From an uncultured Roseburia sp. (GTDB taxonomy: Bacteria > Bacillota > Clostridia > Lachnospirales > Lachnospiraceae): DNA of 64,000 nucleotides. A program made the position numbers and the translations under genes. Below the pieces are notes generated by a model. That model was not told the DNA's origin. It ran no database searches and was given only the letters and a program-made list of their open reading frames with translations. The stretch spans positions 1-64,000 of the forward strand of contig CANPGM010000003.1 in NCBI GenBank assembly GCA_947573605.1, given 5' to 3'. Positions 18,734 through 42,648 of this stretch are shown here, piece after piece (position 1 is the first letter of the stretch; the number at the start of each line of letters is the position of its first letter).

Positions 18734-19426
18734 ATGCAAAATATCAGATTTATGCAGACAGAGGGGATTGATAAAGGAGATCTGAAGGTAGAGGTTGTAG
18801 GGAGCAGAGACAATCAGCCGATTCGGGATGCGCAGATTTCGATATCCTACTCAGGAGAACCGGACTCCGTCATAGAAGAGGTGAACACGGATGAAAATGG
18901 GATGTCAGAATCATTATCGCTTAATACGCCTCCACTTGAATACTCTATGCAGCCCGGGGAAAACCAGCCGTTCTCTCAATACACTATTCAGGTCAGTGCT
19001 CCGGGATATCGCCCGTTCGCGATCTCGGGGATCGAAGTGTTCTCAGGTCAGCTGTCCCTCCAAAGGGTGCGGCTGTCAGAAGAGGAAGCGCCGGGGAACC
19101 CGATAGATACGATTGTAATTCCGGTAAATACGCTTTTCGGAAATTTTCCGCCTAAAATCGCGGAATCGGAAATAAAGCCGATTGCAGAATCGGGAGAGAT
19201 CGTATTAAGCAGAGTGGTAATACCGGAATATGTCGTTGTGCATGACGGAGCGCCCACCGATCCGACTGCCGCAAATTATTATGTAAGATATCGGGATTAT
19301 ATTAAAAATGTGGCATCTTCGGAGGTTTACAGCACCTGGCCGGATGCAACGCTGCGGGCGAATATTCTTGCCATTATGTCGTTTACGATGAACCGTGTCT
19401 ATACGGAGTGGTACGGAAATCAATAG
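18734..19426 (+). CDS. sleC: SleC-like spore cortex-lytic protein, 5' segment (gene interrupted)
   Basis: This is the N-terminal 226 codons of a SleC-type protein, followed by Gly-Asn-Gln and a stop that belong to inserted DNA. SleC is a pre-pro cortex-lytic enzyme of clostridial spores, activated by Csp proteases at germination. Recognisable family segments are LEYSMQPGENQPFSQY, LFGNFPPKIAES, IPEYVVVHDGAPTD, DYIKNVASSEVYSTWP and FTMNRVYTEWY. Those after about residue 140 belong to the mature enzyme region. The match stops exactly at Trp-Tyr, where the homologous sequence resumes in frame at 42064. The ATG is preceded by GACGAGG. The joined protein would have 420 aa, close to the roughly 440 aa of SleC. 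As it stands, the segment lacks its C-terminal half and should be inactive. Confidence 0.85.
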   Translation: MQNIRFMQTEGIDKGDLKVEVVGSRDNQPIRDAQISISYSGEPDSVIEEVNTDENGMSESLSLNTPPLEYSMQPGENQPFSQYTIQVSAPGYRPFAISGIEVFSGQLSLQRVRLSEEEAPGNPIDTIVIPVNTLFGNFPPKIAESEIKPIAESGEIVLSRVVIPEYVVVHDGAPTDPTAANYYVRYRDYIKNVASSEVYSTWPDATLRANILAIMSFTMNRVYTEWYGNQ

Positions 19427-19430
19427 ATTT
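19395..19430 (+). repeat. attL: left junction of the element
   Basis: Host sequence ...ACGGAGTG meets the core GT (19411-19412) and element sequence ACGGAAATCAATAG. The GAAATCAA arm at 19416-19423 is the mirror of TTGATTTC at the other end. Confidence 0.75.
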
Positions 19431-19619
19431 CATTGGATTTGCTTTTCCATCCGCGCCGCCGTCAATGCATCCGGCCGCAAACGTATGTGTGAAAGAATGA
19501 AAGTTTCTTTGAGAACCGTTTAAAAGATAAACATTCGAATTTCGGGTGAAAAAATAAAAAATATGGATAATTTGCCAAATATCTTAGCAATATCGAACCA
19601 TTTTTATAAGGAAATTTTA

Positions 19620-19648
19620 TTGACTGATATATCTGTTAATGCTATAAT
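19620..19648 (+). promoter_or_regulatory. Promoter of the element's polysaccharide operon
   Basis: TTGACT (19620-19625), 17 bases, TATAAT (19643-19648). It is the only strong promoter seen before the long run of cargo genes. The remainder of the 19427-19619 stretch holds no credible gene. Confidence 0.8.
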
Positions 19649-19695
19649 CCTAACAAGGTAATTAAGAAGTGATGTCGAGCTTTGATAGTTTTGTC

Positions 19696-19733
19696 TTTCG
19701 TGAATTTGCTTATTTCACGAAACCCTAAGCAAA
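19696..19733 (+). promoter_or_regulatory. Two mutually exclusive hairpins in the operon leader
   Basis: TTTCGTGAA (19696-19704) pairs perfectly with TTCACGAAA (19714-19722). The loop of that hairpin, TTTGCTTA (19705-19712), pairs perfectly with TAAGCAAA (19726-19733). The two helices share their loops, so only one can form fully. The second ends a few bases before the AAAGGA ribosome binding site of the helicase. This could be a translational switch or an antitermination element; no known family was recognised. Confidence 0.5.
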
Positions 19734-19757
19734 ATCGGCAAAGGATATGGTATCAGT

Positions 19758-22121
19758 ATGGGGCTTTATTTATACCCGCACAATCAAACCGCATATGAAA
19801 AAGCTTTGCGCCTGATGGAGAAAGAGGGCAAGGCTGCAGTGATTCATCCGACCGGGACAGGGAAATCCTTTATTGCCTTTAAACTGGCGGAAGAACGCCC
19901 TAAGGCACGTATCTGCTGGCTGTCTCCAAGCGAACATATTGTAAAAACGCAGCTTGAGAATCTGCGAAAATCCGCAGAATCGGATCGTAAGCGGCAGAGT
20001 ATTTCGGAAACAGGGTTTCGAAACATTACGTTTTTGACTTACACGAAGCTTATGCTGATGAAGCAGGAGGCATTTGAGAAACTGAATCCGGACTATATTA
20101 TTCTGGACGAGTTTCATCGCTGCGGCGCCGCGGAGTGGGGGAAAAGTGTAGAAAAATTGCTTGCGCAATATCAAACCGCGAAAGTTTTGGGTCTGTCCGC
20201 GACCAATATTCGATATCTTGACGGACAGCGCGATATGGCGGACGAGTTGTTTGACGGAAAAATTGCGTCGGAGATGACGTTGGGAGATGCAATTGTAGAC
20301 GGGATTCTCCCTGCGCCGCAATATATCATTTCTCTTTATTCCTGTAAAGAAGATTTGTCAAATTTAAAAAACAGGGTCGATGCCATAAGTAACAAAGCGA
20401 TTCGAGCAGAGAACGAAGAGATTTTCGAACAGTTAAAGCGGACGCTTCAAAATGCGGACGGACTGGATCGTATCTTTGCCCGGCATATGAAGAAGAGAAA
20501 CGGCAGATACCTTGTTTTTTGTATGGATAAAGAACATATGGAGGAAATGGCAGCCAAAGCGCATGATTGGTTTTGGCGCATAGACGACGAGCCGCACTGT
20601 TACGTCGTGTATTACGGCAATCCGGAAGCAGACAGGGAATTTACAGCTTTTAAGGATGACAAAAGCGATCATTTAAAGCTGCTTTACTGTATTGATATGT
20701 TAAATGAAGGCGTCCATGTGGAAGGAATCGACGGGGTGATTTTGCTGAGGCCGACGGTGTCTCCGATTCTCTATCTGCAGCAGATCGGGCGCTGTCTTGC
20801 GGCGGGGAAGAAATCCGCGCCGATTATTTTTGATATTGTAAATAATTTTGACAGCTTATATTCCATTGATTCAATCGAAGATGAGATTCAGGAAGCGCTA
20901 TTAAAACGGGACGTTTCTTTAACCGAACGAAAGCGATTTTCAGAGAGGTTTCGGAGCACGGACGAGTCAAGGGATTGTCTGAAATTATTTGAAAAACTGA
21001 AAAGAAGCCTCTCCTCCGCATGGGAGATTTATTATAGGGCGGCCGAAGATTTTTACAGAAAAAACGGCAATTTAAATATACCAAAAACTTATATGACGGA
21101 AAGCGGGCTTGCGCTGGGCGCATGGATTATTACGCAGAGACGCGTTTATGCGGGGAAAATTCCGGGCAGGCTGACAGGCGAACAGATAAAAAAGCTCAAT
21201 GCGGTTGGCATGGAGTGGGAAAGTAAATCGGAGCAGCGATTTATACAGGGCTGCGAGGCGCTTGCGGCATATAAAAACGAACATGGCAATACGGACGTGA
21301 AGGCCGATTATGTGACAGAAGAAGGATTCCGACTTGGGAAATGGGTCAGCGCCATGAGGCAGAAAAAGAAATTCGAACAGCGGAAGGCGGGAGACGAGAC
21401 GGCATTTGCGGAGGATTGGATGGAAAAGCTGGATGCGCTGGGAATGATATGGGACCGGCACGACTGGAAATGGGAGCAGAATTTTCAGGCAGCGGAGAAA
21501 TATTACAAAGAGCACGGGAACCTTTCCGTACCGCGCGACTGCGTTACGGAAGACGGTATGCGGCTTGGAGTCTGGCTTGAGAATCAGAGAGAAAGATATG
21601 CCAAAGGAAAGGAAGACGCCGTGCCTCTTGGTACGGAACGGATTAGCAGATTAAACGCCATAGGCATGGAATGGGAAAAAAAGAATGACAGCTTATGGGA
21701 TAAATATTATGCCCTTGCCAGATTATTTTATGAAGAAAACGGCCATCTGAATGTTCCGGCGGGTTACTGTGCGGACGGTCTGGAGCTCGGAAAATGGATT
21801 TATTCACTGCGGCGAAAGAGGCAAAATCCATCGTCTTCCGGCAGAAAGCTGACGGAGGACCGCATTCGGAAGCTGGACGCTATCGGAATGGACTGGAACA
21901 GGGATGCATGGGAGGTTAAATACCGACTGGCCGAAGATTATTACAGGGAACACGGTAACTTAAAGATTCCGTCGGATTTTGTGACAAAGGAGCGGATATG
22001 GCTCGGAAAATGGGTGTATGAGCAAAAGAAGAGCTGTAAAAACCGGACGCTTTGTGAAGAACGGAAGAAGAAACTGGAAGAAATCGGAATTGAATGGACA
22101 AATACGGGGAGAACGGAATGA
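19758..22121 (+). CDS. Superfamily 2 helicase with five C-terminal helicase-associated (HA) repeats
   Basis: This is a 787-aa DEAD/DEAH-like ATPase. The Q-like motif YPHNQTAYEKA is at residues 6-16, Walker A HPTGTGKS at 30-37, the DEFH box at 117-120, motif III GLSAT, and motif VI QQIGRCLA. From about residue 420 to the end there are five repeats of about 70 residues with the pattern aromatic-x6-Y-x5-G-N/H-L-x-V/I-P ... L-G-x-W ... L-x-x-I/L-G-M-x-W, the helicase-associated domain. The biochemical role of this class is not established; it may remodel DNA or transcribing complexes. Its stop codon overlaps the start of the sugar transferase (ATGA), so it is the lead gene of the polysaccharide operon. 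Confidence 0.85.
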   Translation: MGLYLYPHNQTAYEKALRLMEKEGKAAVIHPTGTGKSFIAFKLAEERPKARICWLSPSEHIVKTQLENLRKSAESDRKRQSISETGFRNITFLTYTKLMLMKQEAFEKLNPDYIILDEFHRCGAAEWGKSVEKLLAQYQTAKVLGLSATNIRYLDGQRDMADELFDGKIASEMTLGDAIVDGILPAPQYIISLYSCKEDLSNLKNRVDAISNKAIRAENEEIFEQLKRTLQNADGLDRIFARHMKKRNGRYLVFCMDKEHMEEMAAKAHDWFWRIDDEPHCYVVYYGNPEADREFTAFKDDKSDHLKLLYCIDMLNEGVHVEGIDGVILLRPTVSPILYLQQIGRCLAAGKKSAPIIFDIVNNFDSLYSIDSIEDEIQEALLKRDVSLTERKRFSERFRSTDESRDCLKLFEKLKRSLSSAWEIYYRAAEDFYRKNGNLNIPKTYMTESGLALGAWIITQRRVYAGKIPGRLTGEQIKKLNAVGMEWESKSEQRFIQGCEALAAYKNEHGNTDVKADYVTEEGFRLGKWVSAMRQKKKFEQRKAGDETAFAEDWMEKLDALGMIWDRHDWKWEQNFQAAEKYYKEHGNLSVPRDCVTEDGMRLGVWLENQRERYAKGKEDAVPLGTERISRLNAIGMEWEKKNDSLWDKYYALARLFYEENGHLNVPAGYCADGLELGKWIYSLRRKRQNPSSSGRKLTEDRIRKLDAIGMDWNRDAWEVKYRLAEDYYREHGNLKIPSDFVTKERIWLGKWVYEQKKSCKNRTLCEERKKKLEEIGIEWTNTGRTE

Positions 22122-23542
22122 ATAACAAATTTCATGACGCCTCATTAAAACTAATCAAAATGTTTAATGTGGTACTCATAACAATACCTTTTGCCCTTGT
22201 CTGGATGTACTATTACGCAGAGCGGACCGACGCGCCGTATTATGCAAAAGGAAATTGGCTGATTATTGTTTTGTTTTTGATTCTTTATACCATATACGGA
22301 CATGTTTATGATGCGTTGCTTTTACAGATCAGTCATATATCGGAAATGGTGTACAGCCAGAGTCTTTCGGCTGTGATATCGGACGGCATTATGTATATTG
22401 TGTGCTGGCTGCTGACGAAGCATCTGCCTGCGGTTTGGCCGCTTCTGCTTGTTCTGTTTGCGCAGGTTCTATTATCGGCGCTTTGGGCAAATGTGTTTCA
22501 TCGATGGTACTTTCGCAAGTTCCCGCCCAAACGGACTGCAGTCGTATATGATATGCGGGAAGGAATGGAAAAGCTTTTAGAGGAGTACGGACTGGATAAA
22601 AATTTCTGTGTGGAAGCCGCGGTAAGCGTAGAGGAGTGTCTTGCAAACGGGATGACGGTTCTTAACGGTATGGAAACGGTATTTTTATACGGAATACACA
22701 GCCGCGAACGAAATATCCTCCTGAAATATTGCGTCGCAAATAAAATTGCAGTTTATGTGATTCCCAGAATCGGCGACGTGTTAATGAGCAGCGCAAAACC
22801 GGTACATATTCTTCATTTGCCGATTCTTCAGGTAAAGCAGTATGCGCCTTCCGTAGAATATGTTGTAGTAAAGCGTTTGATAGATCTTATCGTATCGGGG
22901 GCGGCGCTTATCTGCCTTAGTCCGATTATGCTAATTACAGCTATCGTTATCAAGGCGGAGGACCGCGGTCCGGTTTTCTATAAACAGTGTCGGCTGACAA
23001 AGGACGGAAAAAAATTTATGGTATTGAAATTCCGCAGTATGAGAGTAGATGCGGAAAAAGACGGCGTTGCGAGGCTTTCCAGCGGGGAGCATGACGACCG
23101 GATTACTGTTGCGGGCAGGATGATCCGAAAAATGAGAATTGACGAGCTGCCGCAGCTTTTGAATATTATAAAAGGCGATATGTCGATTGTCGGTCCGAGA
23201 CCGGAGCGGCCGGAAATTGCGGCGCAGTATGAAAAAGAATTGCCGGAGTTTGCATTGCGTCTTCAGGCAAAGGCCGGTCTGACCGGATACGCGCAGGTCT
23301 ACGGGAAATACAATACAAGTCCCTATGACAAGCTGCAGATGGATTTAATGTATATAGCAAAGCCGGGGATATTAGAGGATATCCGGATTATGTTTGCCAC
23401 GGTAAAAATATTGTTTTTACCGGAGAGCACGGAAGGAGTTGCAAAAGGCGCGGTGACTGCCATGACGCCGGAACAGCCGGAGCTATCCTCTTTGGGTAAG
23501 GAAAATAAGGTGATAAATGCGGTCGGCAGTATGAGGGACTAG
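22118..23542 (+). CDS. Polyprenyl-phosphate sugar-1-phosphate transferase (priming enzyme)
   Basis: This membrane enzyme of the bacterial sugar transferase family (PF02397) starts the repeat unit by moving a sugar-1-phosphate onto undecaprenyl phosphate. The 474-aa protein has about four membrane segments within residues 1-130, a central cytoplasmic region, another hydrophobic helix (LIDLIVSGAALICLSPIMLI) and the catalytic domain with KFRSM, IDELPQLLNIIKGDMS, VGPRPERPE and GLTGYAQVYGKY. ATG 22118 overlaps the helicase stop and follows GGGGAGA; an in-frame start at 22094 is less likely. The donor sugar cannot be read from sequence. Confidence 0.92.
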   Translation: MNNKFHDASLKLIKMFNVVLITIPFALVWMYYYAERTDAPYYAKGNWLIIVLFLILYTIYGHVYDALLLQISHISEMVYSQSLSAVISDGIMYIVCWLLTKHLPAVWPLLLVLFAQVLLSALWANVFHRWYFRKFPPKRTAVVYDMREGMEKLLEEYGLDKNFCVEAAVSVEECLANGMTVLNGMETVFLYGIHSRERNILLKYCVANKIAVYVIPRIGDVLMSSAKPVHILHLPILQVKQYAPSVEYVVVKRLIDLIVSGAALICLSPIMLITAIVIKAEDRGPVFYKQCRLTKDGKKFMVLKFRSMRVDAEKDGVARLSSGEHDDRITVAGRMIRKMRIDELPQLLNIIKGDMSIVGPRPERPEIAAQYEKELPEFALRLQAKAGLTGYAQVYGKYNTSPYDKLQMDLMYIAKPGILEDIRIMFATVKILFLPESTEGVAKGAVTAMTPEQPELSSLGKENKVINAVGSMRD

Positions 23543-23543
23543 G

Positions 23544-24365
23544 ATGGATTACTCTGTACTTATGTCTGTTTATAATAGAGAAAAACCGAAATATCTGGCT
23601 CAGGCGATGGAGAGCATAGCGTCTCAGACCATTCCGACGGATGATTTTGTGCTTGTCTGCGACGGGCCGTTAAACGACGGATTGGAGCAGGTGATATCCG
23701 ACGGGAAAAAGTTATTCGGAGACGCCCTTCATCTTGTGCGTCTGGAAAAAAACGGCGGGCTTGGAAATGCCCTGAATACGGGGATTAAGTATTGCAGACA
23801 TGATCTGGTTGCGAGAATGGACAGCGACGATATCAGCCTCCCCGGACGGTGTGAAAAACAACTGGCTGCATTTGAAAACGATCCTTCGCTTTCCGTACTC
23901 AGCGGAACAGTGCTGGAATTTAAGGATTCGCCGGAGTATGTTTCCGGGAAAAGGGAGCTGCCCCAAAAGCATGAAGAAATTCTGGCGTTTTCATGCAAAC
24001 GGAATCCCTTTAATCATCCGGCTGTAATGTTTCAGAAATCGGCGGTGGCTGCGGCGGGCGGTTATGATGAGTCGTACCCGCTTTTTGAGGATTATTATCT
24101 GTGGATTCGTATGCTTCAAAACGGCTGTAAGGGCTATAACCTGAAGGAACCTCTGCTGTATATGAGAACGCCGGAGGATTTGTATCTGCGCCGCGGAGGA
24201 AAAAAGTATGCAAAAGATATGCTGCGGTTTCATAAATGGCTGCTGCGTTCGGGATTTACGAAACCGCTTCAGTTTCTTACCGGCGCCGTGCCGCATGCGC
24301 TTGTATGCGTGCTGCCGAACCGGGTGCGCCGGGCGGTATATAAGGGACTGCGTGCCCGCTGCTGA
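23544..24365 (+). CDS. Glycosyltransferase family 2
   Basis: This 273-aa GT-A fold transferase probably adds a sugar to the lipid-linked repeat unit. The N-terminus SVLMSVYNREKPKYL, the GGLGNALNTGI segment and the metal-binding RMDSDDISLP (DxD) are typical, and FEDYYLWIRMLQNG is the usual acceptor-side acidic motif. It starts one base after the sugar transferase stop codon, so translation is probably coupled. The linkage and sugars are unknown. Confidence 0.9.
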   Translation: MDYSVLMSVYNREKPKYLAQAMESIASQTIPTDDFVLVCDGPLNDGLEQVISDGKKLFGDALHLVRLEKNGGLGNALNTGIKYCRHDLVARMDSDDISLPGRCEKQLAAFENDPSLSVLSGTVLEFKDSPEYVSGKRELPQKHEEILAFSCKRNPFNHPAVMFQKSAVAAAGGYDESYPLFEDYYLWIRMLQNGCKGYNLKEPLLYMRTPEDLYLRRGGKKYAKDMLRFHKWLLRSGFTKPLQFLTGAVPHALVCVLPNRVRRAVYKGLRARC

Positions 24366-24410
24366 TTAGTACGCCGGAGTAATTTCGCAGGATGACAGAA
24401 GGAGAGGCAG

Positions 24411-25481
24411 ATGAAAAAAAAGGTTGCTTATGTGATTAACAGAATAGAAAGAGGCGGCCCCAGCAACGTTGTTTTAGGAATCATCCACAATCTGGATCAC
24501 TCACAATTTGAACCGGTATTAGTTACGCTGTTTTGCGGAAATGACGAAACGATTGTAACGGAATTGAAAGAGAAAGGCATTTCGGTGATTGAGTGCCAAA
24601 ATAACAGCAGAATGAAATATCTGCTGTTCGGGCACAGAGAATTAAAAAGAATCGTGAACGACAGGTTGATTCAAGTCATACATAGTCATGGTTTTGTGCC
24701 GGATATCGTTTCCTCCCGGATGCACAGGAAGGTAAGGAAAATCAATACCATTCATAACAATATGTATGAAGATTATATCTTTACTTACGGGAAATGGAAA
24801 GGATTTCTATATACCAGGATTCATTTACGCGCAATGAGAAAGCTGGACTTGTGTGTCTGCTGTTCAAAGACAGTGCAAGAGGTGATGCAGAAGCGTCTGA
24901 AAAATGTGACGTACATTCGAAACGGCTGCGGAGAAATCGATACCTGCAATTATGAATCAAGAGAAACATTAGGAATACCGGATGGCGCCGTCGTTTTTAT
25001 CTATGCAGGGCATTTTTCGCCGTGTAAAAGAACGCTGCAGCTGGTAAATCATTTTCATCATTTTCGTCAGGAAAATGAATATTTAGTCATGATAGGGGAC
25101 GGTCCTGAACATAAAAAGTGCAGGGAGGTTTGTGACGATCATATTAAATTCCCGGGAGTTTTAAAAAATCCTTATCCGTATATGAAGATGGCTGACATAT
25201 ACGTATCAGAGTCTGCTTCGGAAGGATTTTCTGTGTCAATACTTGAAGCGCTGACCTGCGGTCTGGGATTGTTTTTATCGGATATTCCGTCTCATAAAGA
25301 GGTATTCGACATTTCGGAGGAAACTTATTTGGGCGAATATTTTTCGGAGAATCAGTTTTCCGAAAAACTGCAGAGCCTTCGTTTAAATTTTTCTGCAATA
25401 GAGAAAGCGAAGATAAAGGATTTTAAAAGAAAGTATCTTTTGGACAGTAATATGGCAAAGCAATATCAAATGCTGTATTAG
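24411..25481 (+). CDS. Glycosyltransferase family 4/1
   Basis: This is a 356-aa GT-B retaining-type transferase. The N-terminal domain starts with KKVAYVINRIERGGPSNVV, the usual GT4 entry, and has the IHSHGFVPDIVSSR segment. The C-terminal domain has FIYAGHFSPCKRTLQLV, LVMIGDGPEHKKC, and the donor-binding SESASEGFSVSILEALTCGL (ExxxxxE) region. AGGAGAGG precedes the ATG. It is the third sugar-handling gene of the operon. The specificity is not known. Confidence 0.9.
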   Translation: MKKKVAYVINRIERGGPSNVVLGIIHNLDHSQFEPVLVTLFCGNDETIVTELKEKGISVIECQNNSRMKYLLFGHRELKRIVNDRLIQVIHSHGFVPDIVSSRMHRKVRKINTIHNNMYEDYIFTYGKWKGFLYTRIHLRAMRKLDLCVCCSKTVQEVMQKRLKNVTYIRNGCGEIDTCNYESRETLGIPDGAVVFIYAGHFSPCKRTLQLVNHFHHFRQENEYLVMIGDGPEHKKCREVCDDHIKFPGVLKNPYPYMKMADIYVSESASEGFSVSILEALTCGLGLFLSDIPSHKEVFDISEETYLGEYFSENQFSEKLQSLRLNFSAIEKAKIKDFKRKYLLDSNMAKQYQMLY

Positions 25482-25494
25482 GGGAGATCTAATA

Positions 25495-26583
25495 GTGAAG
25501 GTATGTTTTTTAATTGCTGATATAACAAGCAGGGGCGGGACGGAACGCGTTACGACAATCATTGCGAACGGGCTGGTTGAAAAAGGCCTGGAAGCAGGAA
25601 TTATTTCATGCAGAGGAAAAGGGAGCAGTTTTTTCTTTCTGAATGAAAACGTAAAAACGCATTTTCTGAGTGCGGAAGATATCAAAAATCCAATCAAAAG
25701 AAAGTTTTCCAACGTTTCTGCGATTAAGAAGTGCGTAGAACAAAACCATTATGACGTTCTCGTTGCGGTCGATATTTATTTATATCTTTATCTTTTCCCG
25801 CTGCAGATGAAAAGGAAATGCAAATGCGTTGCATGGGATCATTTTAATTATTATATTTCAAGTCACAGAGGCGCAAAACTGGCTAAAATACTTGCTGCAA
25901 AATATGCGGATAAAGTAGTGGTTTTAGGAAAAAACGACCTGCAAAATTACAGGTCGCATTTTAAGAGAGCAAAAAATCTGACATGTATTTATAATCCTGT
26001 CGCATTTCAGAAAACGGAATATAAAAATCCGCATGTGCACCGGGTAATTGCCGCGGGTAATCTGACGGAAGCAAAAGGATTCGATTTACTGATAGACGCA
26101 TGGAATCTTATAGAGAAAAACAAGAAACTGGAACAGGATTGGAAACTGGACATTTTTGGAAACGGTGAACAGAAAGAGATGCTGCAAAGCAAAATCAGGG
26201 GTTACGGTTTAAAAAGGGTAACACTGAAAGGATATGCAAATAATCTTGAGGCGGAATTGATGAATTCGGCTGTTTTTGTTTTGTCTTCGCGTCATGAGGG
26301 GTTTGTTCTGGCGCTGTTAGAGGCCCAGGCAAAAGGACTTCCCTGCGTAAGTTTTAACTGTAAAGAAAGTCCGGCGGAGATTATTGACGACGGGGTGAAC
26401 GGTTTTCTTGTCGAGGAAGGAAACATCGAACAGTTGGCTGAAAAAATGGGGATTCTTATGAACGATTCTGCGCTAAGGATAAAATTTGCGTCCGAGTCTC
26501 AAAAAGATTTAGGACGTTTTGAACCGGAAAGAGTGATAGAACAGTGGGAAACGCTGCTTTATCAGCTGCTTGGAGGGCGATGA
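25495..26583 (+). CDS. Glycosyltransferase family 4
   Basis: This 362-aa GT-B transferase starts at GTG 25495 behind GGGGAGA. The N-terminus CFLIADITSRGGTERVTT has the glycine-rich loop. The C-terminal half has AAGNLTEAKGFDLLIDAW, LDIFGNGEQKEML, and VLSSRHEGFVLALLEAQAKG with the EGF...E donor-site motif, as in EpsF/CapM-like enzymes. It lies 13 bases after the preceding GT4 gene and probably acts on the same repeat unit. Confidence 0.9.
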   Translation: MKVCFLIADITSRGGTERVTTIIANGLVEKGLEAGIISCRGKGSSFFFLNENVKTHFLSAEDIKNPIKRKFSNVSAIKKCVEQNHYDVLVAVDIYLYLYLFPLQMKRKCKCVAWDHFNYYISSHRGAKLAKILAAKYADKVVVLGKNDLQNYRSHFKRAKNLTCIYNPVAFQKTEYKNPHVHRVIAAGNLTEAKGFDLLIDAWNLIEKNKKLEQDWKLDIFGNGEQKEMLQSKIRGYGLKRVTLKGYANNLEAELMNSAVFVLSSRHEGFVLALLEAQAKGLPCVSFNCKESPAEIIDDGVNGFLVEEGNIEQLAEKMGILMNDSALRIKFASESQKDLGRFEPERVIEQWETLLYQLLGGR

Positions 26584-26584
26584 A

Positions 26585-34435: not shown

Positions 34436-34453
34436 GGAAAGCAGGAGAAAGAA

Positions 34454-35494: not shown

Positions 35495-35495
35495 T

Positions 35496-36512
35496 ATGGC
35501 GCTTATGAAAGGGCAGAACGCCTGTTTCAGCAAAACGGTGACGGAGTCGGACGTTTATGGGTTTGCCGGTATTACGGGTGATTTTAACAGGGTTCATATA
35601 GACGAAGAGAAAGCAAAAAACGGGACTTTTGGAGAACGGATTGCGCATGGATTTTTAACGGCCGGTTTTATATCCACTGTTTTAGGGATGTACCTTCCCG
35701 GACCAGGGACGATTCTTCTGAATCAGAGTTTAAATTTTAAGCGCCCGGTAAAAATCGGTGATACCATTACGGCAAAAGCAACTGTGATGGAGGTATTGAA
35801 GGAAGACGAAGGAATTTATAAGCTGGAAACGGTTTGTACGAACCAGTTTCAGGAAGTTGTGATAGACGGAGAGGCGGTTGTAAAATATGCAGGCGAGTTG
35901 AGAGCGCAGGATACGGGGCGTACCGATACGTTTTACAGCAGTCAGGAATTAAAATCGCTTGGGTTAAAACGATGCGGCAAGAATGTATTCATCAGCAGGA
36001 ATGCGGTTTTATACCATCCGGAGCAATTGGAGATCGGAAACAATGTCAGAATCGATGATTTTACCACAATAAGCGGAAAGATTGTTTTGGGGGATTATAT
36101 CCATATCGCGCAGTTTTGCGGTCTATACGGAGGAAGCGAAGGAATATTTATGGACGACTTTTCAGGGATCTCTTCTAAAGTTACCATATATGCAACGTCG
36201 AATGACTATTCCGGAAATTCCATGACAAATCCGATGGTTCCTGCGAAATATAAGACAACCGATAAAAGCGAGGCGGTGCGTTTGTGCAGGCATGTTGTTG
36301 TCGGAAGCGGGTCCGTGATTCTGCCGGGCGTTACGATCAAAGAAGGGAGCTCGGTCGGAGCCATGAGCTTGTGCGGGAAAAGTCTGGACGCCTGGGGCGT
36401 TTATGCAGGCGCTCCGGCAAAGAGGCTGAAGGAGCGCAGCAAAAAGCTGCTGCAGCTGGAACGCCGGCTCAGGGACCACGAGGCAGCAGCCGGGGGGGGG
36501 GGGTATAGCTAA
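35496..36512 (+). CDS. MaoC hydratase-like domain fused to a hexapeptide acyltransferase
   Basis: This 338-aa two-domain protein has residues 1 to about 135 as a hot-dog MaoC/(R)-hydratase domain with the active-site pattern ITGDFNRVHIDEEKA (Asp and His present), AHGFLTAGFIS and FKRPVKIGDTI. Residues from about 160 to 315 are a left-handed beta-helix with repeated hexapeptides (VRIDDFTTISGKIVLGD, VVVGSGSVILPGVTIKEGSSVGA, GAPAKRLKERS), typical of sugar N/O-acyltransferases of the WbbJ/PglD kind. The fusion suggests that (R)-3-hydroxyacyl-CoA made by the first domain is handed to the second to acylate the pseudaminic acid precursor. That is inference. The frame ends just after a run of 12 G residues. 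Confidence 0.85.
   Translation: MALMKGQNACFSKTVTESDVYGFAGITGDFNRVHIDEEKAKNGTFGERIAHGFLTAGFISTVLGMYLPGPGTILLNQSLNFKRPVKIGDTITAKATVMEVLKEDEGIYKLETVCTNQFQEVVIDGEAVVKYAGELRAQDTGRTDTFYSSQELKSLGLKRCGKNVFISRNAVLYHPEQLEIGNNVRIDDFTTISGKIVLGDYIHIAQFCGLYGGSEGIFMDDFSGISSKVTIYATSNDYSGNSMTNPMVPAKYKTTDKSEAVRLCRHVVVGSGSVILPGVTIKEGSSVGAMSLCGKSLDAWGVYAGAPAKRLKERSKKLLQLERRLRDHEAAAGGGGYS
36492..36503 (+). repeat. Homopolymer of 12 G residues near the end of the MaoC-acyltransferase gene
   Basis: Twelve consecutive G residues encode the final glycines before Tyr-Ser-stop. With one G fewer, the frame would continue past 36512 and stop at 36568-36570, inside the next gene. With one more it would stop at once. Such tracts slip at high rate, so a phase-variable tail or phase-variable coupling to the next gene is plausible. 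Confidence 0.8.
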
Positions 36513-36550
36513 GATGCAGGCGGCCGCCGGACTCCCGGTATGGAGGCGGC

Positions 36551-37036
36551 ATGAAAGCGGGGTATGTTGAAACAGAGCGTCTTATTTTACGCGGTATTAC
36601 CAGGCAGGATGCTGACTTGATTGTAAAGTGGCGCGCCGATCCCGAGGTTTATAAATTTTTTCGGCTTCCGCATCGTCTGACGATGGAGGAACACTTGAAG
36701 TGGTACAGGGAGCGTTATCTTACGGACAGACAGCATTGTATCTGGATGGCGGTAAGGAAAGAAGACGAAGTCCCGGTTGGGATGTTCGGATTGAGAAAAT
36801 CAGGAAAGGAAGAGGCGGAAATCAGTTATCTGATTGCTCCTCGGATGCAGGGAAATGGATATGCGCAGGAGACGGCCGTCTCTTTGCTGTCATGGGCAAA
36901 AAAGGAATGGAATATCAGAACTGTTTTTGCGGAAATTCATTATGAGAACGGGCCGTCTGTCCGGTTTGTGCGGCGGCTGGGTTTTGAAGAAGCGGGGAAG
37001 AATAAGAATTTTCGGGTATATAAGAAAACAATGTGA
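36551..37036 (+). CDS. pseH: GNAT N-acetyltransferase, PseH-like
   Basis: This is a 161-aa RimJ/RimL-type GNAT enzyme. ETERLILRGITRQDADLIVKW starts the fold, with the acetyl-CoA loop in LIAPRMQGNGYAQETAVSLL and the C-terminal NGPSVRFVRRLGFEEAG. Its place between pseI and pseG suggests that it acetylates the 4-amino group of the UDP-sugar, the PseH step. GGAGGC precedes ATG 36551. The poly-G tract 48 bases upstream may affect its translation. The symbol rests on context more than on sequence. Confidence 0.78.
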   Translation: MKAGYVETERLILRGITRQDADLIVKWRADPEVYKFFRLPHRLTMEEHLKWYRERYLTDRQHCIWMAVRKEDEVPVGMFGLRKSGKEEAEISYLIAPRMQGNGYAQETAVSLLSWAKKEWNIRTVFAEIHYENGPSVRFVRRLGFEEAGKNKNFRVYKKTM

Positions 37037-37145
37037 TGATTTCCGGGCAGAGTGAAACGGAAAGTTTTGTTTCTGGTAATTCTGCTATTGGGGTATGCAG
37101 TCGACTGTTTTAAGAAAATAATAAGACAAAAGGTAAGAGGACGTT

Positions 37146-38198
37146 ATGATACTTTTTCGTGCGGACGGCAATAAAATAATCGGTTCCGGCCATATTATGC
37201 GCTGCCTTTCTCTTGCAGCGGCGTTTCGCCGAACGGGGGAAGAATGCACTTTTGTACTGTCGGACGATGCGTTTGCGTTGACCGTGCATAAAAACGGTTT
37301 TCCGGCCGAGATCTTGCATACGGATTTTAAACGGATGGAGTCGGAACTGCAGAAGCTTTTGGCGCTATTGAAAAGACTTCGGCCGACATGTGTCATCGTG
37401 GACAGTTATTATGTGACGGAGACTTATTTAAAAACCCTGAAAGAACAGCGCCCGGTTGTTTATATGGATGATCTTTCTGCTTTTGCTTATCCGGCCGACT
37501 GTCTTGTGAATTATAATATATTTGGCAGCTCTGCGGTGTATGAAACGCTTTACCGGGGGGCTGCCGCGTCTTTGCCGCAGCTTTTTCTGGGGCCTTCCTA
37601 CGCGCCGCTGCGGGAGGAGTTTAAACAGGTTAAAAAACGGCCGCAGCCTGTTCGGGTGAAAAATGTTCTGATTTCCACGGGCGGAGCGGATCCGGCTCAT
37701 CTGGGACTTCGCTGCGTGTGTTATCTTGCCAAAGCCAAAGGGAACTATGATGAATTTTGTTTTCACGTTGTCGTCGGAGCGCTGAATGCGGATGCGGATA
37801 AAATAACGGCAGCCGCGGAGGGTCTTAAGAATGTGGAAATTCTTAAAAACGTGAGCTCTATGAAGGATGTGATGCTGCATTGTGATCTGGCGGTTGCCGC
37901 CGCCGGAAGTACGCTTTATGAGCTGTGCGCCTGCGGCGTCCCGACGATTACTTATATTTTGGCGGATAACCAGAAGCAGGGGGCAAAAGCTTTTGAAAAA
38001 CAGGGACTTATGATATCGATTGGGGATGTCAGAGGAAACGATGCTGCGCCGGAAACGATCTTTCATGCAGTGAAAGCATTAAGCGATGACATGGAAAGAA
38101 GAATGGAGCTGTCGGCCGGAATGCAAAAAACAGTCGACGGCTGCGGCGCGGACAGACTTGCACAGGCATTGTCCGTGTGGGCGACGGGTATTTTTTGA
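37146..38198 (+). CDS. pseG: UDP-2,4-diacetamido-2,4,6-trideoxy-beta-L-altropyranose hydrolase
   Basis: PseG removes UDP from the diacetamido sugar before condensation by PseI. The 350-aa GT-B-like protein (MurG relative) starts with RADGNKIIGSGHIMRCLSLA, holding the conserved GxGHxxR motif with its histidine. It also has VVYMDDLSAFAYP, LLGPSYAPLREEF in similar form, ISTGGADPAHLGL and AAAGSTLYELCACGVPTI. The length is normal. It completes the set pseB, C, H, G, I, F needed for CMP-pseudaminic acid. Confidence 0.94.
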   Translation: MILFRADGNKIIGSGHIMRCLSLAAAFRRTGEECTFVLSDDAFALTVHKNGFPAEILHTDFKRMESELQKLLALLKRLRPTCVIVDSYYVTETYLKTLKEQRPVVYMDDLSAFAYPADCLVNYNIFGSSAVYETLYRGAAASLPQLFLGPSYAPLREEFKQVKKRPQPVRVKNVLISTGGADPAHLGLRCVCYLAKAKGNYDEFCFHVVVGALNADADKITAAAEGLKNVEILKNVSSMKDVMLHCDLAVAAAGSTLYELCACGVPTITYILADNQKQGAKAFEKQGLMISIGDVRGNDAAPETIFHAVKALSDDMERRMELSAGMQKTVDGCGADRLAQALSVWATGIF

Positions 38199-38330
38199 AA
38201 TGACGGAAAGAAAGACTTTTTGCGTGAAAAGGGATGCGTATGGCAGCAAATCTGTTTTTATGATTTGAAATTGCAGTCGTATCGGGGATATGGTAAAGTA
38301 AGGATAAATAAAACAGGAACCGTATCAGAT

Positions 38331-39227
38331 ATGAAACAGGAATTAATTGTTACCAGATATAAATTGCATAGTTGCAGTTCTTATATCCGTAAAGACATCC
38401 GCATTGCGCTTGTTGCAGATCTGCATGACCGTAAGCCGGATGAGCTGTTGTTTTTGCTTCGGAAAGAGCCGGTTGATTTTATTCTGGCAGCGGGCGATTT
38501 GATGGAACGCAGAGAAGAGGGCGTATCGGAATGGACGGAGGAAGCAATGCAGGAGTGGCAGGGGACGAAGGGAAAATGGCCTGTGTCCGATTTTCTTGCG
38601 AATGCTGCGGATGCGGCTGCCGGATGGTTATTTCCCGCGGAAAGACAGGAACGATCATGGAGCGAGGAAAACGGCAGATATTTTCTTCGGGAAGCTTCCA
38701 AAGTAGCGCCTGTTTATCTGGGAGTGGGCAATCACGAATGGTATTACCTGCCGAAGGATTATGAGGTGATGCAGAAATGCCATATAAGGCTGTTGGACAA
38801 TAAGGACGTCGTGGCGGAACGCGAAGCGGCGGCGGGTAAGGGCTGTATCTTAATCGGCGGTCTTTCCACCCGCTACGATTTGGAATGGTTAAAGCGGTTT
38901 TCCCGAAAGGAAGGGTACAAAATCCTGATCTGCCATCATCCGGAATACTATCTGCGTTTTATAAAAGGGACGCGATACGATAACTTTGATCTGATTGTTT
39001 CGGGCCACAGCCACGGCGGTCAGTGGCGGATCGGAGGACGCGGCGTTTATGCGCCGGGGCAGGGTATGTTTTCCAAATATGCTTACGGCATACACAATAC
39101 GGCCAAAGGCGCGCATGACGGAAAGCTGATTGTCAGCGCAGGGTGTGTGAACACGGTAAATGTACCGAGATGGGGCAATCCGTGCGAACTGGTTATAATC
39201 GAGATGAAAGCGGGCAGGTTGGATTAG
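38331..39227 (+). CDS. Calcineurin-like metallophosphoesterase (YkuE-type)
   Basis: This 298-aa metallophosphoesterase shows LVADLHDRKPDELL, AAGDLMERREE (GDxx metal ligand), GVGNHEWYY (GNHE), ICHHPEYY and VSGHSHGGQWRIG. The set of five motifs is complete. The ending SAGCVNTVNVPRWGNPCELVII fits the YkuE branch, which acts on lipid or nucleotide phosphodiesters. Its role in this polysaccharide cluster is not known. ATG 38331 has only a weak ribosome binding site. The frame is open upstream to 38220, so the N-terminus is uncertain. Confidence 0.8.
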   Translation: MKQELIVTRYKLHSCSSYIRKDIRIALVADLHDRKPDELLFLLRKEPVDFILAAGDLMERREEGVSEWTEEAMQEWQGTKGKWPVSDFLANAADAAAGWLFPAERQERSWSEENGRYFLREASKVAPVYLGVGNHEWYYLPKDYEVMQKCHIRLLDNKDVVAEREAAAGKGCILIGGLSTRYDLEWLKRFSRKEGYKILICHHPEYYLRFIKGTRYDNFDLIVSGHSHGGQWRIGGRGVYAPGQGMFSKYAYGIHNTAKGAHDGKLIVSAGCVNTVNVPRWGNPCELVIIEMKAGRLD

Positions 39228-39284
39228 CGGTAAATTATAATTTATCATAAAATATGCCATCGCGCATTTAGAAAGAAGAAAGAT

Positions 39285-39890
39285 ATGGCTTTAGAAAATA
39301 AACTTTATATTACAGATTCCACAGAACTGGCCAGAATGGAAGAAAAGATAAGTAAGAAAAAAGCTGTTGAATTATTTGAAAACGGATATCTGGACAATTA
39401 TGAAGCCGGGTCATTTCAGATGCTTGCGGCAATTCATAAATATTTATTTGATGAAATATATGAATTTGCGGGAAAAGTACGAACTGTAAATATTGCAAAA
39501 GGAAATTTTAGATTTGCGCCGGTGATGTATCTGCAGTCAGCGATTGAGAATGTTGAGAGGATGCCGCAGTCAACTTTTGATGAAATAGTTGAAAAGTATG
39601 TGGAGATGAATATAGCGCATCCATTCCGCGAGGGTAACGGGCGAAGCGCAAGGATATGGCTTGATTTAATTTTGAAAAAAGAGCTGAACATGGTCGTTGA
39701 TTGGAGTACAGTCGATAAGGAAGAGTATTTACTTGCAATGGAAAGAAGCCCAATTAAAGATATTGAAGTAAAATACGTTTTGAAACAGGCTTTGACTGAT
39801 AAGGTCAATGATAGAGAAGTGTATAGGAAAGGCATAGATTATAGTTATTATTATGAAGGTTATGCGATATACAAAGCAGAAGATTTATAA
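39285..39890 (+). CDS. Fic-domain AMP-transferase, class III (autoinhibited)
   Basis: Fic proteins transfer AMP or other nucleotides to target proteins. The 201-aa protein has the full active-site motif HPFREGNGRSAR starting at His112. The C-terminal helix carries S-Y-Y-Y-E-G (Ser187 to Gly192), matching the S/T-xxx-E-G/N inhibitory motif. Its position at the C-terminus places it in class III, like the small Neisseria Fic protein. No separate antitoxin gene is adjacent, which fits self-inhibition. It starts 57 bases after the phosphoesterase with AGAAGAAAGA upstream. The target is unknown; a maintenance or defence role for the element is possible. Confidence 0.85.
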   Translation: MALENKLYITDSTELARMEEKISKKKAVELFENGYLDNYEAGSFQMLAAIHKYLFDEIYEFAGKVRTVNIAKGNFRFAPVMYLQSAIENVERMPQSTFDEIVEKYVEMNIAHPFREGNGRSARIWLDLILKKELNMVVDWSTVDKEEYLLAMERSPIKDIEVKYVLKQALTDKVNDREVYRKGIDYSYYYEGYAIYKAEDL

Positions 39891-39905
39891 AAAATTGTAT
39901 TTGCA

Positions 39906-39924
39906 GGGGAGATGAAATCTCCCC
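39906..39924. terminator. Bidirectional terminator between fic and the small minus-strand gene
   Basis: GGGGAGAT-GAA-ATCTCCCC is a perfect 8-bp stem. It is flanked by AAATTTTTG on the right and, on the complement, by CAATTTTTTAT about 10 bases later. It ends the cargo operon before the recombinase region. Confidence 0.75.
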
Positions 39925-40076
39925 TACTCAAATTTTTGATTAATCGGCTGTATGCCTTCTTTTCTCGCATTGTGCGTTTGATTTTGATTCTCCGGCGTGA
40001 CTTTTTGCGTTACGCTGTTGAATTTGTTTTGATTTTTCTGTTCTTCTGCCTGTGATTTCTTATTTTTAGTATTCAT
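39924..40076 (-). CDS. 50-aa Asn/Gln/Lys-rich small protein, resembling small acid-soluble spore proteins
   Basis: This short frame on the complement starts at ATG 40074-40076 and stops at TAG 39924-39926. The product begins MNTKNKKSQAEEQKNQNKF and ends IQPINQKFE; it is very rich in Asn, Gln and Lys and has no hydrophobic core. The composition resembles gamma-type small acid-soluble spore proteins and the small Asn/Gln-rich proteins common in Lachnospiraceae. AAAGGG lies before the start, and a terminator follows. It is the only minus-strand gene in the element. A forespore-like promoter pattern is possible (GTATA, 18 bases, TACACTA on the complement, 40098-40127). The function is not established. 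Confidence 0.6.
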   Translation of the reverse strand: MNTKNKKSQAEEQKNQNKFNSVTQKVTPENQNQTHNARKEGIQPINQKFE

Positions 40077-40195
40077 TTTTCCCTTTCACCCCGTAGTTAG
40101 TGTAGACAAAAAGAATAAAAAGTATACCCCGGATGATTCAGATCATGCAAACGCCGAAAATCACTCTGATACACCGGAGACGCCTGTCCGCCGTC

Positions 40196-40222
40196 ATACC
40201 GGAGAATAAAACCGCATAAGCT
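40196..40222 (+). promoter_or_regulatory. Possible sigma-E-like promoter before the recombinase operon
   Basis: ATA (40196-40198), 16 bases, CATAAGCT (40215-40222) partly matches the Bacillus sigma-E pattern ATA-N16-CATACANT (6 of 8 in the -10). No convincing sigma-A promoter was seen in 40077-40255. This is weak evidence on its own. Confidence 0.25.
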
Positions 40223-40255
40223 GTCAGGATCAGGAGCAAACAAAAAGGCGTTCTT

Positions 40256-40435
40256 ATGAGTGAAATCGAAAAAGACAGAGTTGTATTTTCTCGGAGTTAC
40301 AGAAATCAAAAGAGAACGGTGATTCTGGAATTTCCAAAGCAGTCAAATCAGGCGGCAAATGACGCGCTTGCGGACAGACTCAAAGAACTTTATTTTCGAA
40401 AGTCTGAGAAGGAAGCGGGGGACGGTTATGAGTAA
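40256..40435 (+). CDS. 59-aa small protein translationally coupled to the recombinase
   Basis: ATG 40256 opens a 59-codon frame beginning MSEIEKDRVVFSRSYRNQKR and ending KEAGDGYE. The stop TAA overlaps the recombinase start (ATGAGTAA), so the two are probably coupled. The protein is charged and has a likely C-terminal helix (ANDALADRLKELYFRK). It has no family recognised here. Small genes next to large serine recombinases often encode the recombination directionality factor; the SP-beta RDF SprB has 58 aa. The size and position fit, but the assignment is a guess. Its ribosome binding site (AAAGGCG) is modest. Confidence 0.6.
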   Translation: MSEIEKDRVVFSRSYRNQKRTVILEFPKQSNQAANDALADRLKELYFRKSEKEAGDGYE

Positions 40436-42074
40436 AAAAGTGCGGACATTATTGAGAGTATCGTCAAGGCAGCAGCTTCATGAAAACGATATTCCGATTC
40501 AGAGGGCCGAGGCGAAGGCGTATATCGAGGGAAAGCCGGACTGGATTTTCGACGGCGAATACATGGAAAAAGCAGTATCCGCCTATAAAAACAGCGTAGA
40601 GGACAGAGAAGTACTGCTGCGGATCTTAGAGGATGCGAAAAAGCGTCAGTTTCAGGTACTGCTTGCCTATATGTCGGACCGAATCGGACGGAAAGAAGAG
40701 TACAGTACTTATGTGGCGGCGTTAAACCGTCTGGGCGTGGAAGTCTGGACCATTAAGGACGGACAGTTAAAAACAGAAGAACATATTGACCGGCTGCTTA
40801 ATTTTATCCGCTTCTGGCAGAACGAGGGCGAGAGCAGAAAGACCGGAATGCGGGTAAGAGACAGTATGCAGGAAATGGTAAAAAAGGGGCGGTTTATGGG
40901 CGGACGGGCGCCTTACGGATATCGCCTTATTGCGTCCGGGCTTGTCAGCAATCACGGAAGGCTGCTTAAAAAGCTGGAGATTGTGGAAGAACAGGCTTCC
41001 ATTGTCCGAAAAATTTACAGCCTGGCGGTATATCAGGGTTTCGGATACGAAAAAATAGCAAAGGCGCTAAACGCACAGGGAATACCTGCGATTACAACAG
41101 ACAAATGGAAATCCGCCACAATTGCAAGTATTTTAAAGAATCCGGTTTATATGGGCTATCCGGCGTACAATCGAAGGGTCAACCACGGGAGTTTTACAAG
41201 ACTTGACAGAAAAGACTGGGTCTATTCCGAGGAACAGATTGCAGAGCTTGTAATTGTACCGCCCCGGGTATGGGAGACGGCTCAGGAAATCAGAGAGGCG
41301 AGAAAAAAGACGCTTGCGGCGGCGCGGGAAGCAAACGGATTAAAGGAGAATGCTGCAGCGCCGTTTCGCACGGACGGAACGCTTGCTCTGACAGGGCTGG
41401 TTTTCTGCGGTTATTGCGGAAAACGGTTAAAAAACGGAAGCTGCATCAACCATTGGGTGATAAAATCAACCGGAGAGAAGAAAGCAGCCTATGCAGGGCG
41501 ATATCTCTGCCCGGAAAGGTGCAGAGAGCGGAACTGTTATGCAAAAGATTATCTGGAAGAGGCTGTTTTTCATGCGGCGGCCGGTTTTCTGAGTCATATA
41601 AAGACGATTGACATTTCAAAGGAGTATCACAGAAGGCGGGAACAGGAGATAGAACGTTTCAGAAGAGAGTTCTTTCGGACGGCAAAGGCGAGGAGAGAGC
41701 TGAAACTGGATATGGAAACATTGGAAGAAAAAATTCCGCAGGCGATCAGAGGGGAATATTATTTCAGCGCCGAAAAGCTGTCCAAACTGATAGCGGAAAA
41801 GGCGGAGACGTTTAAAGAACTTGCGGCGAAGGAAAGGGAGACAGAAGAACGGCTTCGGGAAGCGGAAGAATGTTACGGCGCGGACAAAAAAAGACCGACC
41901 GCCGCTTTGGACTGGGGCGAAGAATTTTTACATGCGGACACGGCGACAAAGCATATGATTTTATCCTCCTTTATTGACAAAATCATTGTAAAGAACGAAG
42001 AAATTGTGATAAAGTTAAAAGTAAAGCCCGGCGATTTTCAGGCGGAAACCGTTGATTTCGGCGTACCGGAATAA
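40428..42074 (+). CDS. Large serine recombinase (element integrase/excisionase)
   Basis: This 548-aa large serine recombinase has a resolvase catalytic domain at residues 1-150 (VRTLLRVSSRQQ with catalytic Ser12, AYMSDRIGRKEEY). A recombinase domain follows (GRFMGGRAPYGYRL, IAKALNAQGIPAI, ILKNPVYMGYPAYN), then a zinc ribbon (LVFCGYCGKRLKN, CPERCRERNC) and a long C-terminal coiled coil. The start at ATG 40428 is set by overlap with the small upstream gene. The last codons cross attR, so the Pro-Glu end and the stop codon are supplied by sleC DNA. In the excised circle the frame would run on for 28 residues from the left end of the element. It is the obvious enzyme for insertion and excision. 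Confidence 0.93.
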   Translation: MSKKVRTLLRVSSRQQLHENDIPIQRAEAKAYIEGKPDWIFDGEYMEKAVSAYKNSVEDREVLLRILEDAKKRQFQVLLAYMSDRIGRKEEYSTYVAALNRLGVEVWTIKDGQLKTEEHIDRLLNFIRFWQNEGESRKTGMRVRDSMQEMVKKGRFMGGRAPYGYRLIASGLVSNHGRLLKKLEIVEEQASIVRKIYSLAVYQGFGYEKIAKALNAQGIPAITTDKWKSATIASILKNPVYMGYPAYNRRVNHGSFTRLDRKDWVYSEEQIAELVIVPPRVWETAQEIREARKKTLAAAREANGLKENAAAPFRTDGTLALTGLVFCGYCGKRLKNGSCINHWVIKSTGEKKAAYAGRYLCPERCRERNCYAKDYLEEAVFHAAAGFLSHIKTIDISKEYHRRREQEIERFRREFFRTAKARRELKLDMETLEEKIPQAIRGEYYFSAEKLSKLIAEKAETFKELAAKERETEERLREAEECYGADKKRPTAALDWGEEFLHADTATKHMILSSFIDKIIVKNEEIVIKLKVKPGDFQAETVDFGVPE

Positions 42075-42082
42075 AGGATACA
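42050..42082 (+). repeat. attR: right junction of the element
   Basis: The element arm TTGATTTC (42052-42059), then GGC, the core GT (42063-42064) and host sequence ACCGGAATAAAGG. The stop codon of the recombinase (42072-42074) lies in host DNA. Joining the element halves gives an attP with 11 bases each side of GT, of which the outer 8 are perfect inverted repeats. Confidence 0.75.
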
Positions 42083-42648
42083 ATTTTACAATTACGTCCT
42101 CTACCGCGTTCGACCAGAAATTTACCTACGGCAGGAATATTTTCCGGAGTATTTCCGATATTGTAGACGAAATGTTTCAGAATTATCTGTCGCGGCCGAA
42201 TGTCCGCCAGCCGATTTTAACACAGTACTGCGACGGACAGCGTGTGACCTGCAGCAACTGGTTAAGCCAGTGGGGCAGTAAGTACTTAGGGGATCAGAAC
42301 TATGAGACAATAGAAATCATTCGTTATTATTACGGAAATAATATGTTTATAAATACCGCGGAGGAGGTATCGGGAATCCCGGCTTCGTGGCCGCGCGTCG
42401 ATTTAACCATAGGCTCTACCGGAGAAAAGGTACGCCAGATGCAGGAACAGCTTGCAAAAATCTCCGTAAGCTATCCTGCGATACCGGCCGTAACGCCGGA
42501 CGGGATTTACGGACCCGCGACAAGAGCGGCCGTCGAAAAATTTCAGTCTGTATTCGGACTTCCCGTTACGGGAATTGTGGATTATCGTACCTGGTATAAA
42601 ATCTCTGAAATATACGTAGCAGTCACGCGTCTTGCCGAACTGGTATAG
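42064..42648 (+). CDS. sleC: SleC-like spore cortex-lytic protein, 3' segment (gene interrupted)
   Basis: This is the C-terminal 194 codons plus stop of the gene that begins at 18734. It resumes with YRNKGYNFTITSSTAFDQ, exactly continuing NRVYTEW from the 5' segment. It goes on with GRNIFRSISDIVDEMFQNYL, FCDG-type QYCDGQRVTC, NWLSQWGSKYLGD and RYYYGNNMFI. It ends with a peptidoglycan-binding PF01471 domain (IGSTGEKVRQMQEQL, DGIYGPATRAAVEKFQSVF, VDYRTWYKI). No ribosome binding site lies in front. A TTG at 42052 opens the frame but is in element DNA, so this piece is unlikely to be expressed unless the element is excised. Confidence 0.85.
   Translation, partial: YRNKGYNFTITSSTAFDQKFTYGRNIFRSISDIVDEMFQNYLSRPNVRQPILTQYCDGQRVTCSNWLSQWGSKYLGDQNYETIEIIRYYYGNNMFINTAEEVSGIPASWPRVDLTIGSTGEKVRQMQEQLAKISVSYPAIPAVTPDGIYGPATRAAVEKFQSVFGLPVTGIVDYRTWYKISEIYVAVTRLAELV

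Follow-up and report, generated by a model that had tools for sequence, protein, structure and literature searches.

A serine-recombinase element splits sleC in an uncultured Roseburia and is a candidate for removal during spore formation

Why would a gut bacterium keep a germination gene in two distant pieces, and could these pieces still give one working product? This question is raised by sleC, the gene for a spore cortex-lytic enzyme, in a 64,000-nucleotide stretch of an uncultured Roseburia sp. (Lachnospiraceae; GCA_947573605.1, contig CANPGM010000003.1, positions 1 to 64,000; hereafter the window), whose genome assembly is 3.08 Mb and 97% complete. Its sleC is interrupted by an element of 22,652 bp that carries a large serine recombinase at its right end. 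We consider it likely that this is a sporulation-gene intervening element, which the mother cell would excise to repair sleC, as with skin and SP-beta. The same idea stood in an earlier note on this DNA, made from the sequence letters. As a deduction from sequence comparison, it now draws support from junctions that would restore the frame exactly, from the association of the recombinase clade with sleC, and from purifying selection, retention of spoIVA, minimal elements and promoter motifs.

The split gene and its junctions

We call the codon interrupted in the window site A; other sleC genes are split near residue 294 (site B) or at a third site (site C). The split gene, its junctions and the two open reading frames (ORFs) at the right end of the element are as follows.

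18734..19426, forward strand: sleC 5' half, 226 codons up to the GT core, after which the frame enters the element and stops at 19426
19411..19412, no strand: GT crossover core at the left junction; among 69 site-A loci, 68 have TGGT on the left side
19411..42062, no strand: intervening element, 22,652 bp measured core to core
40256..40435, forward strand: 59-aa ORF, candidate recombination directionality factor, overlapping the recombinase start
40428..42074, forward strand: large serine recombinase, 548 aa, with Resolvase and Recombinase domains
42063..42064, no strand: GT crossover core at the right junction; the right side reads GTA in 64 of 64 loci
42063..42648, forward strand: sleC 3' half, with the remaining catalytic region and the peptidoglycan-binding domain

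The 5' frame stops at 19426 and the missing half picks up at 42064, the same positions that the earlier note had given. Its claim that joining at GT neither loses nor duplicates a codon also held: the joined flanks form a frame of 420 codons with 0 internal stops, which aligns without gaps to that of the intact relative L004 (354/420 residues identical, 84%). L004 itself matches the solved structure PDB 9h68 ('Spore cortex-lytic enzyme pre-pro-form') from residue 12 to 419 (E 1.8e-126). Because this match to pre-pro-SleC is nearly full length, we regard the window gene as a true SleC. The crossover GT lies in the TGG-TAC (Trp-Tyr) codons of sleC, and the 26-bp arms that flank it at the outer ends of the element form an imperfect inverted repeat (15/26 positions match). 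Like sporulation-gene intervening elements as a class, the element interrupts a sporulation/germination gene and has a site-specific recombinase near the junction, and its shared GT core would, as read from sequence, restore the frame precisely.

The recombinase adjoins the right junction, as the earlier note had said, and its stop codon falls inside the right half of sleC. Excision would swap its last residues (window 42050-42074) for a longer tail from the left end of the element. Residues S12, R85 and R88 are invariant in an alignment of 11 site-A recombinases; together with the two domains, this identifies the enzyme as a large serine recombinase, and we take S12 to be the catalytic serine. 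The best solved-structure matches of the clade are SP-beta YokA and a YokA-YotN fusion. YotN of SP-beta goes by the name sprB in PMC4191935. The 59-aa ORF had no match in PHROGs or Pfam.

A recombinase clade tied to sleC

We looked for intact sleC in related genomes, as the earlier note had proposed, and found it, for example in L004. The N half of sleC was matched in 51 of 60 relatives, mostly as a whole-length frame, and the nearest relatives of the window are intact. In G007, a member of the window's genus group, sleC is interrupted at site A by an insert of 14.1 kb.

Searching named genomes with the window recombinase as a single sequence gave no match. The alignment of 11 site-A recombinases, used as the query instead, yielded 175 relatives, and we retained the best 78 loci. 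In 77 of these 78 loci, the recombinase is accompanied by half a sleC gene, or half a second SleC paralog, that is broken at the window codon; in the 78th (L158), a 19-residue sleC match lies at the contig end. The distance between recombinase and sleC half is at most 260 nt in 70 of the 78 loci and 412-3835 nt in seven, while L158 is cut off by its contig end. Since all 78 named loci kept have a sleC half broken at this codon, the association is not due to chance. In 299 family genomes, 10 recombinases matched at E 1e-100, including the window's own, and eight of these were at sleC; the two weakest matches (about 30% identical) had no sleC within 4.6 kb. In L114, L116, L121, L122, L125, L140, L159 and L165, it is the second SleC paralog that this clade interrupts, at the equivalent codon. 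A 145,752-bp IMG/VR virus contig (L300, positions 7600-7800) contains a recombinase of the clade (36%) and, after it, an uninterrupted attachment-like site, in which CCACGAAT/ATTCGTGG arms flank a GT core. Its right arm resembles the left-junction arms of integrated elements, and the contig has no sleC match.

Site-A elements range from 1.9 to 22.65 kb among 43 loci with both junctions, where limited flanks under-sample large elements and at least one duplicate is included (L044/L168); the window element is the largest. In minimal elements of 1.9-2.1 kb (L114, L116, L121, L122), the small ORF is the only gene seen besides the recombinase. Of 90 loci, counting redundant ones, 87 gave a small ORF directly 5' of the site-A recombinase under a loose length rule that does not imply homology of every pick. 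It overlaps or abuts the recombinase in 39 of the 87. The small ORFs are 13-37% identical to the 59-aa ORF of the window in a 36-row alignment.

A SleC match, paralogs included, was present in 255 of 397 family genomes. By hand classification, at least 33 of these 255 have a split sleC, a lower bound because it comes from piecewise inspection of 58 genomes, 47 of them among the 255, and of 71 loci (L032-L102). Eleven are split at site A (G091, G101, G163, G202, G222, G247, G263, G374, G378, G408, G423), 20 at site B (G075, G083, G087, G106, G113, G116, G118, G154, G191, G223, G225, G253, G269, G276, G284, G287, G312, G315, G365, G428) and two at site C (G251, G345). A single half was seen in G101, G202, G222, G263 and G287. 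We excluded G133, G157 and G110, where halves at contig edges or overlapping halves may be assembly breaks (all three were among the genomes searched for SpoIVA and have it), as well as G006, G135, G189 and G210 (contig edges) and G280, in which a split second copy lies beside an intact one. G264 was rejected as a split sleC, being a frameshift instead.

The site-B recombinases belong to a distant clade; their identity to the window recombinase is about 25%, and their junction core is TGACC. Some members (L362, L364-L371, L373-L380) have no sleC in the 3-4.5 kb around them, so this clade is less strictly tied to the gene. Both sites are occupied, leaving sleC in three pieces, in G456 (Hominisplanchenecus murintestinalis), G457 (Lacrimispora saccharolytica An817) and G461, and recombinases of the site-B type adjoin the site-B junction in L156 and L171. 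Such three-piece genes (L156, L171; G456, G457, G461) would therefore need two separate excisions. In five draft assemblies (G456, G457, G460, G461, G463), the only SleC seen is split, and in the draft assembly of Lachnospiraceae bacterium 28-4 (G464) both SleC copies are in two pieces. In one of the G464 copies (G464:C2:132922-134228), the halves are about 1.3 kb apart, too short for the usual recombinase gene; this insert is possibly a remnant that depends on the recombinase of another copy.

Selection, promoter motifs and rival explanations

Most split genes have the look of functional ones. None of the matched N and C halves of split site-A genes that we compared contains a stop, while L048, which is not split, has two. 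Among 26 hand-picked pairs of split genes, seven had recombinase dS values of 0.57-1.47 and sleC dN/dS values of 0.008-0.057.

L113/L134: N half 0.024, C half 0.008
L121/L116: N half 0.048, C half 0.050
L119/L117: N half 0.029, C half 0.032
L142/L143: N half only, 0.057
L142/L035: N half only, 0.039
L154/L174: N half 0.030 (near saturation, dS 3.11), C half 0.031
L164/L174: C half only, 0.040

Because the divergence of the recombinase roughly matches that of sleC in these seven pairs, the element was probably inherited by descent and sleC has probably been split since the common ancestor. To judge from these ratios, split sleC stays under purifying selection in such pairs. Distant split-split pairs, with dN/dS up to 0.73 near synonymous saturation, were not used, and intact-intact pairs under the same filter had median dN/dS values of 0.14 (24 pairs) and 0.18 (12 pairs). 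Compared with the outgroup L005, the window sleC has a dN of 0.212 in the N half (L003-L005, 0.199) and 0.091 in the C half (L003-L005, 0.106), values that indicate no excess amino-acid change. SpoIVA was searched in 69 genomes, of which three doubtful ones were set aside. It was found in 36 of 38 genomes with split sleC, 12 of 12 with intact sleC and none of 16 without sleC; the two misses among split genomes (G014, G222) are 86-87% complete, and G004, counted as split, also has an intact sleC copy and 7% contamination. SpoIVA is present in the window genome, as are two sigma genes of the E/K type; both of these are uninterrupted and score below the NCBIfam SigK cut-off.

Two promoter motifs in the window would place the recombinase and the repaired gene in the mother-cell programme.

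18604..18630, forward strand: sigma-K-type promoter motif of sleC, CACA-N15-CATATGATA, 130 nt 5' of the ATG
40194..40222, forward strand: sigma-E-type promoter motif, TCATACC-N14-CATAAGCT, 62 nt 5' of the small ORF

Just 5' of the sleC motif lies an imperfect inverted repeat (18542-18605), which probably terminates transcription of the gene before it. For the promoter counts at the recombinase, nine redundant loci were removed. The sigma-E-type motif lies 50-72 nt 5' of an in-frame small-ORF start in 37 of 78 elements, compared with 10 of 1528 other ORFs in these loci, for which the range was 45-75 nt. In 36 of 78 loci it falls within 520 nt of the recombinase, versus 2.9 in shuffled sequences and 5% of random windows of the same length. 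It is also found 5' of spoIVA (7/20 versus 0.7 shuffled) and, less often, of sleC (8/110 versus 2.4). Conversely, the sigma-K-type pattern CACA-N15..17-CATA precedes sleC in 29 of 110 cases (1.2 shuffled, maximum 5), a count that still holds the duplicates L029/L032 and L056/L183, and precedes the recombinase operon in two of 78. At that operon, a strict sigma-K pattern (3/78 versus 1.8 shuffled) and AC[AC]-N16..18-CATA (16/78 versus 12.7) stay at shuffle level. In C. difficile, sleC is reported to be sigma-K dependent (PMC3789822). Considering this dependence and the distribution of the motifs, we infer that sigma-E would serve the enzyme and sigma-K, later, the repaired gene.

The following course of events would account for these observations. 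The large serine recombinase that the element encodes would integrate it at the GT within the TGG-TAC codons, and the element would be carried silently while cells grow. In the mother cell, sigma-E would switch on the operon of small ORF and recombinase, and the recombinase, probably with the small protein as its directionality factor, would excise the element at GT and rejoin sleC in frame. Sigma-K would next transcribe the repaired gene, and SleC would be packed into the spore. Because the mother cell dies, the spore-forming line would keep the element and its glycan cargo. The window copy presumably behaves as its relatives do.

The remaining genes of the window element are listed below.

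19758..22121, forward strand: DEAD/DEAH helicase with helicase-associated domains (Pfam/NCBIfam)
22094..38198, forward strand: surface-glycan locus with sugar transferase, glycosyltransferases, EpsG-like protein, flippase, acyltransferase and pseudaminic acid genes (Pfam/NCBIfam)
Within 22094..38198, forward strand: pseudaminic acid genes starting at 31386 (pseB), 32324 (pseC), 33680 (pseF), 34454 (pseI), 36551 (pseH-like) and 37146 (pseG)
38220..39890, forward strand: metallophosphoesterase and Fic-domain protein (domain scan)

PseB, PseC, PseF, PseI and PseG score above their NCBIfam cut-offs and the PseH-like gene below, which bears out the glycan locus that the earlier note had read as cargo. 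A Pfam scan of 18 cargo ORFs revealed no phage structural family (PHROGs was run on three of the 18), so we do not class the element as a prophage. The 20 ORFs scanned across seven other elements represent different cargo, including replication-type proteins, which are encoded in the L110 and L032 elements.

Several points weigh against excision in the mother cell. Excision is deduced here from comparison and was not observed. Both promoter patterns were refined after hits had been viewed. Our initial promoter scoring was weaker than these refined patterns and gave p<0.05 in just 18 of 79 recombinase operons and 22 of 88 sleC upstream regions (and in 14 of 20 spoIVA upstream regions); because sleC regions passed too, that scoring cannot separate sigma-E from sigma-K. 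Of the 37 sigma-E-type motifs, 24 are in frame with the small ORF and 13 out of frame, and coding conservation could account for part of the motif's conservation and, less probably, for all of it. The 1528 control ORFs were tested at one start each, and site-B recombinases stay near shuffle level for the sigma-E-type motif (2/21 versus 1.0). The signs of selection in the split state come from other lineages, because the window's closest relatives have an intact sleC and most synonymous sites have reached saturation.

Further points of this kind bear on whether the gene is dead, its function having passed to a second SleC-like gene after the element destroyed it. The earlier note had counted a second intact sleC beside a decayed window copy as evidence against repair. 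The second gene does exist, with an open frame of 623 aa that is 43% identical to L004 SleC, and G462, G465, G468 and G469 have one likewise; the window copy is not decayed. In the split relative L132, the C half (8139-8468) matches only up to residue 334, for which decay, a further insertion or divergence are all possible. A dead gene nevertheless seems improbable to us given the stop-free halves, the low dN/dS of the seven pairs, the window's ordinary rate of amino-acid change, the five genomes with split copies only and strain 28-4 with both copies in two pieces. Also unlikely, if a little less so, is an ordinary mobile element that favours a conserved sleC codon and leaves at random or on stress, with selection acting on revertants. 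Some elements did spread very recently: the recombinases of L109, L110 and L111 differ by a dS of 0-0.05, while the dS of their sleC N halves is 1.27 or more, so part of the distribution needs no explanation beyond mobility. The replication-protein genes of L110 and L032 and the virus contig, with its recombinase and intact-looking attachment site away from any sleC, point the same way. Against this, elements of 1.9 kb have no room for transfer genes, recombinase and sleC diverge roughly in parallel in the seven pairs, and mother-cell-type motifs precede the recombinase operon. The full pseudaminic acid locus in the window might instead suggest a vegetative phase-variation switch that gains or loses glycan cargo. 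We find this very improbable, considering that other elements have other cargo, that the smallest have none and that sleC is the target in each named relative kept.

Excision in the mother cell thus remains the reading that we prefer, and the recurrence of sleC as a target of such elements in gut bacteria, which the earlier note does not mention, suggests that they are removed during spore formation. Somewhat more guardedly, we favour a wider picture, in which a dedicated family of serine recombinases is at home in sleC across Lachnospiraceae and behaves like a sporulation-timed DNA intron, with a sigma-E enzyme and a sigma-K repaired gene. Two distant clades would occupy two codons, some genes being in three pieces, and each mother cell would discard its element, which may hold just two genes or as much as a whole surface-glycan locus. 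If so, programmed DNA removal would commonly accompany spore formation in a major gut family, with a favoured target in the gene on which the waking of a spore depends. Why sporulation genes collect such elements would become testable in several cultured commensals, and researchers would gain a large natural collection of recombinases, each with its matching site. Cultured commensals with a split sleC include Lachnospiraceae bacterium A2 and Hominisplanchenecus murintestinalis, whose assemblies contain no further SleC, and Schaedlerella arabinosiphila. A split sleC in genomes or metagenome bins should then not be read as loss of germination.

Relation to known intervening elements

Intervening elements have been described in sigK, spsM, spoVFB, spoVR, gerE and yabG (PMC10747680, PMC5025042, PMC5595907, PMC4191935). 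The skin element in sigK of C. difficile (PMC5025042) is alike in its large serine recombinase, its small directionality factor expressed under sigma-E in the mother cell and its in-frame repair, of which all but the recombinase are conjectural for the sleC element. It differs in its target, a sigma factor gene, and in timing only the factor while its recombinase is constitutive, whereas here a sigma-E-type motif precedes what looks like a single operon of small ORF and recombinase.

A parallel to the two-gene elements is SP-beta in spsM of B. subtilis, for which the recombinase and a 58-aa partner suffice for mother-cell excision, as the laboratory construct SPmini showed. SP-beta is a phage (PMC4191935), unlike the window element as far as its cargo ORFs were scanned, and its YokA is the best solved match of the sleC-element recombinase. 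The gin element in gerE of B. cereus (PMC5595907) is not a phage either. It is of similar size (28.6 kb), carries a serine recombinase and a small factor (GirX, 42 aa) and allows a sporulation gene to be repaired, as we suppose for sleC; it has three recombinases compared with one here, and its target and lineage differ. The yin element of C. botulinum (PMC10747680), like the sleC element, encodes a recombinase and sits in a gene that belongs to the germination pathway and is expressed late in the mother cell, in its case yabG. Its authors report it from one strain only, whereas the sleC family spans many Lachnospiraceae, and the accessible text of that paper mentions SleC only as a YabG substrate. 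No sleC-splitting element was described in the literature searched, which mostly left out subscription papers. The kind of element is already known; as far as this literature shows, sleC as a target, the two-gene minimal form, the tie of the recombinase clade to sleC and its spread are new.

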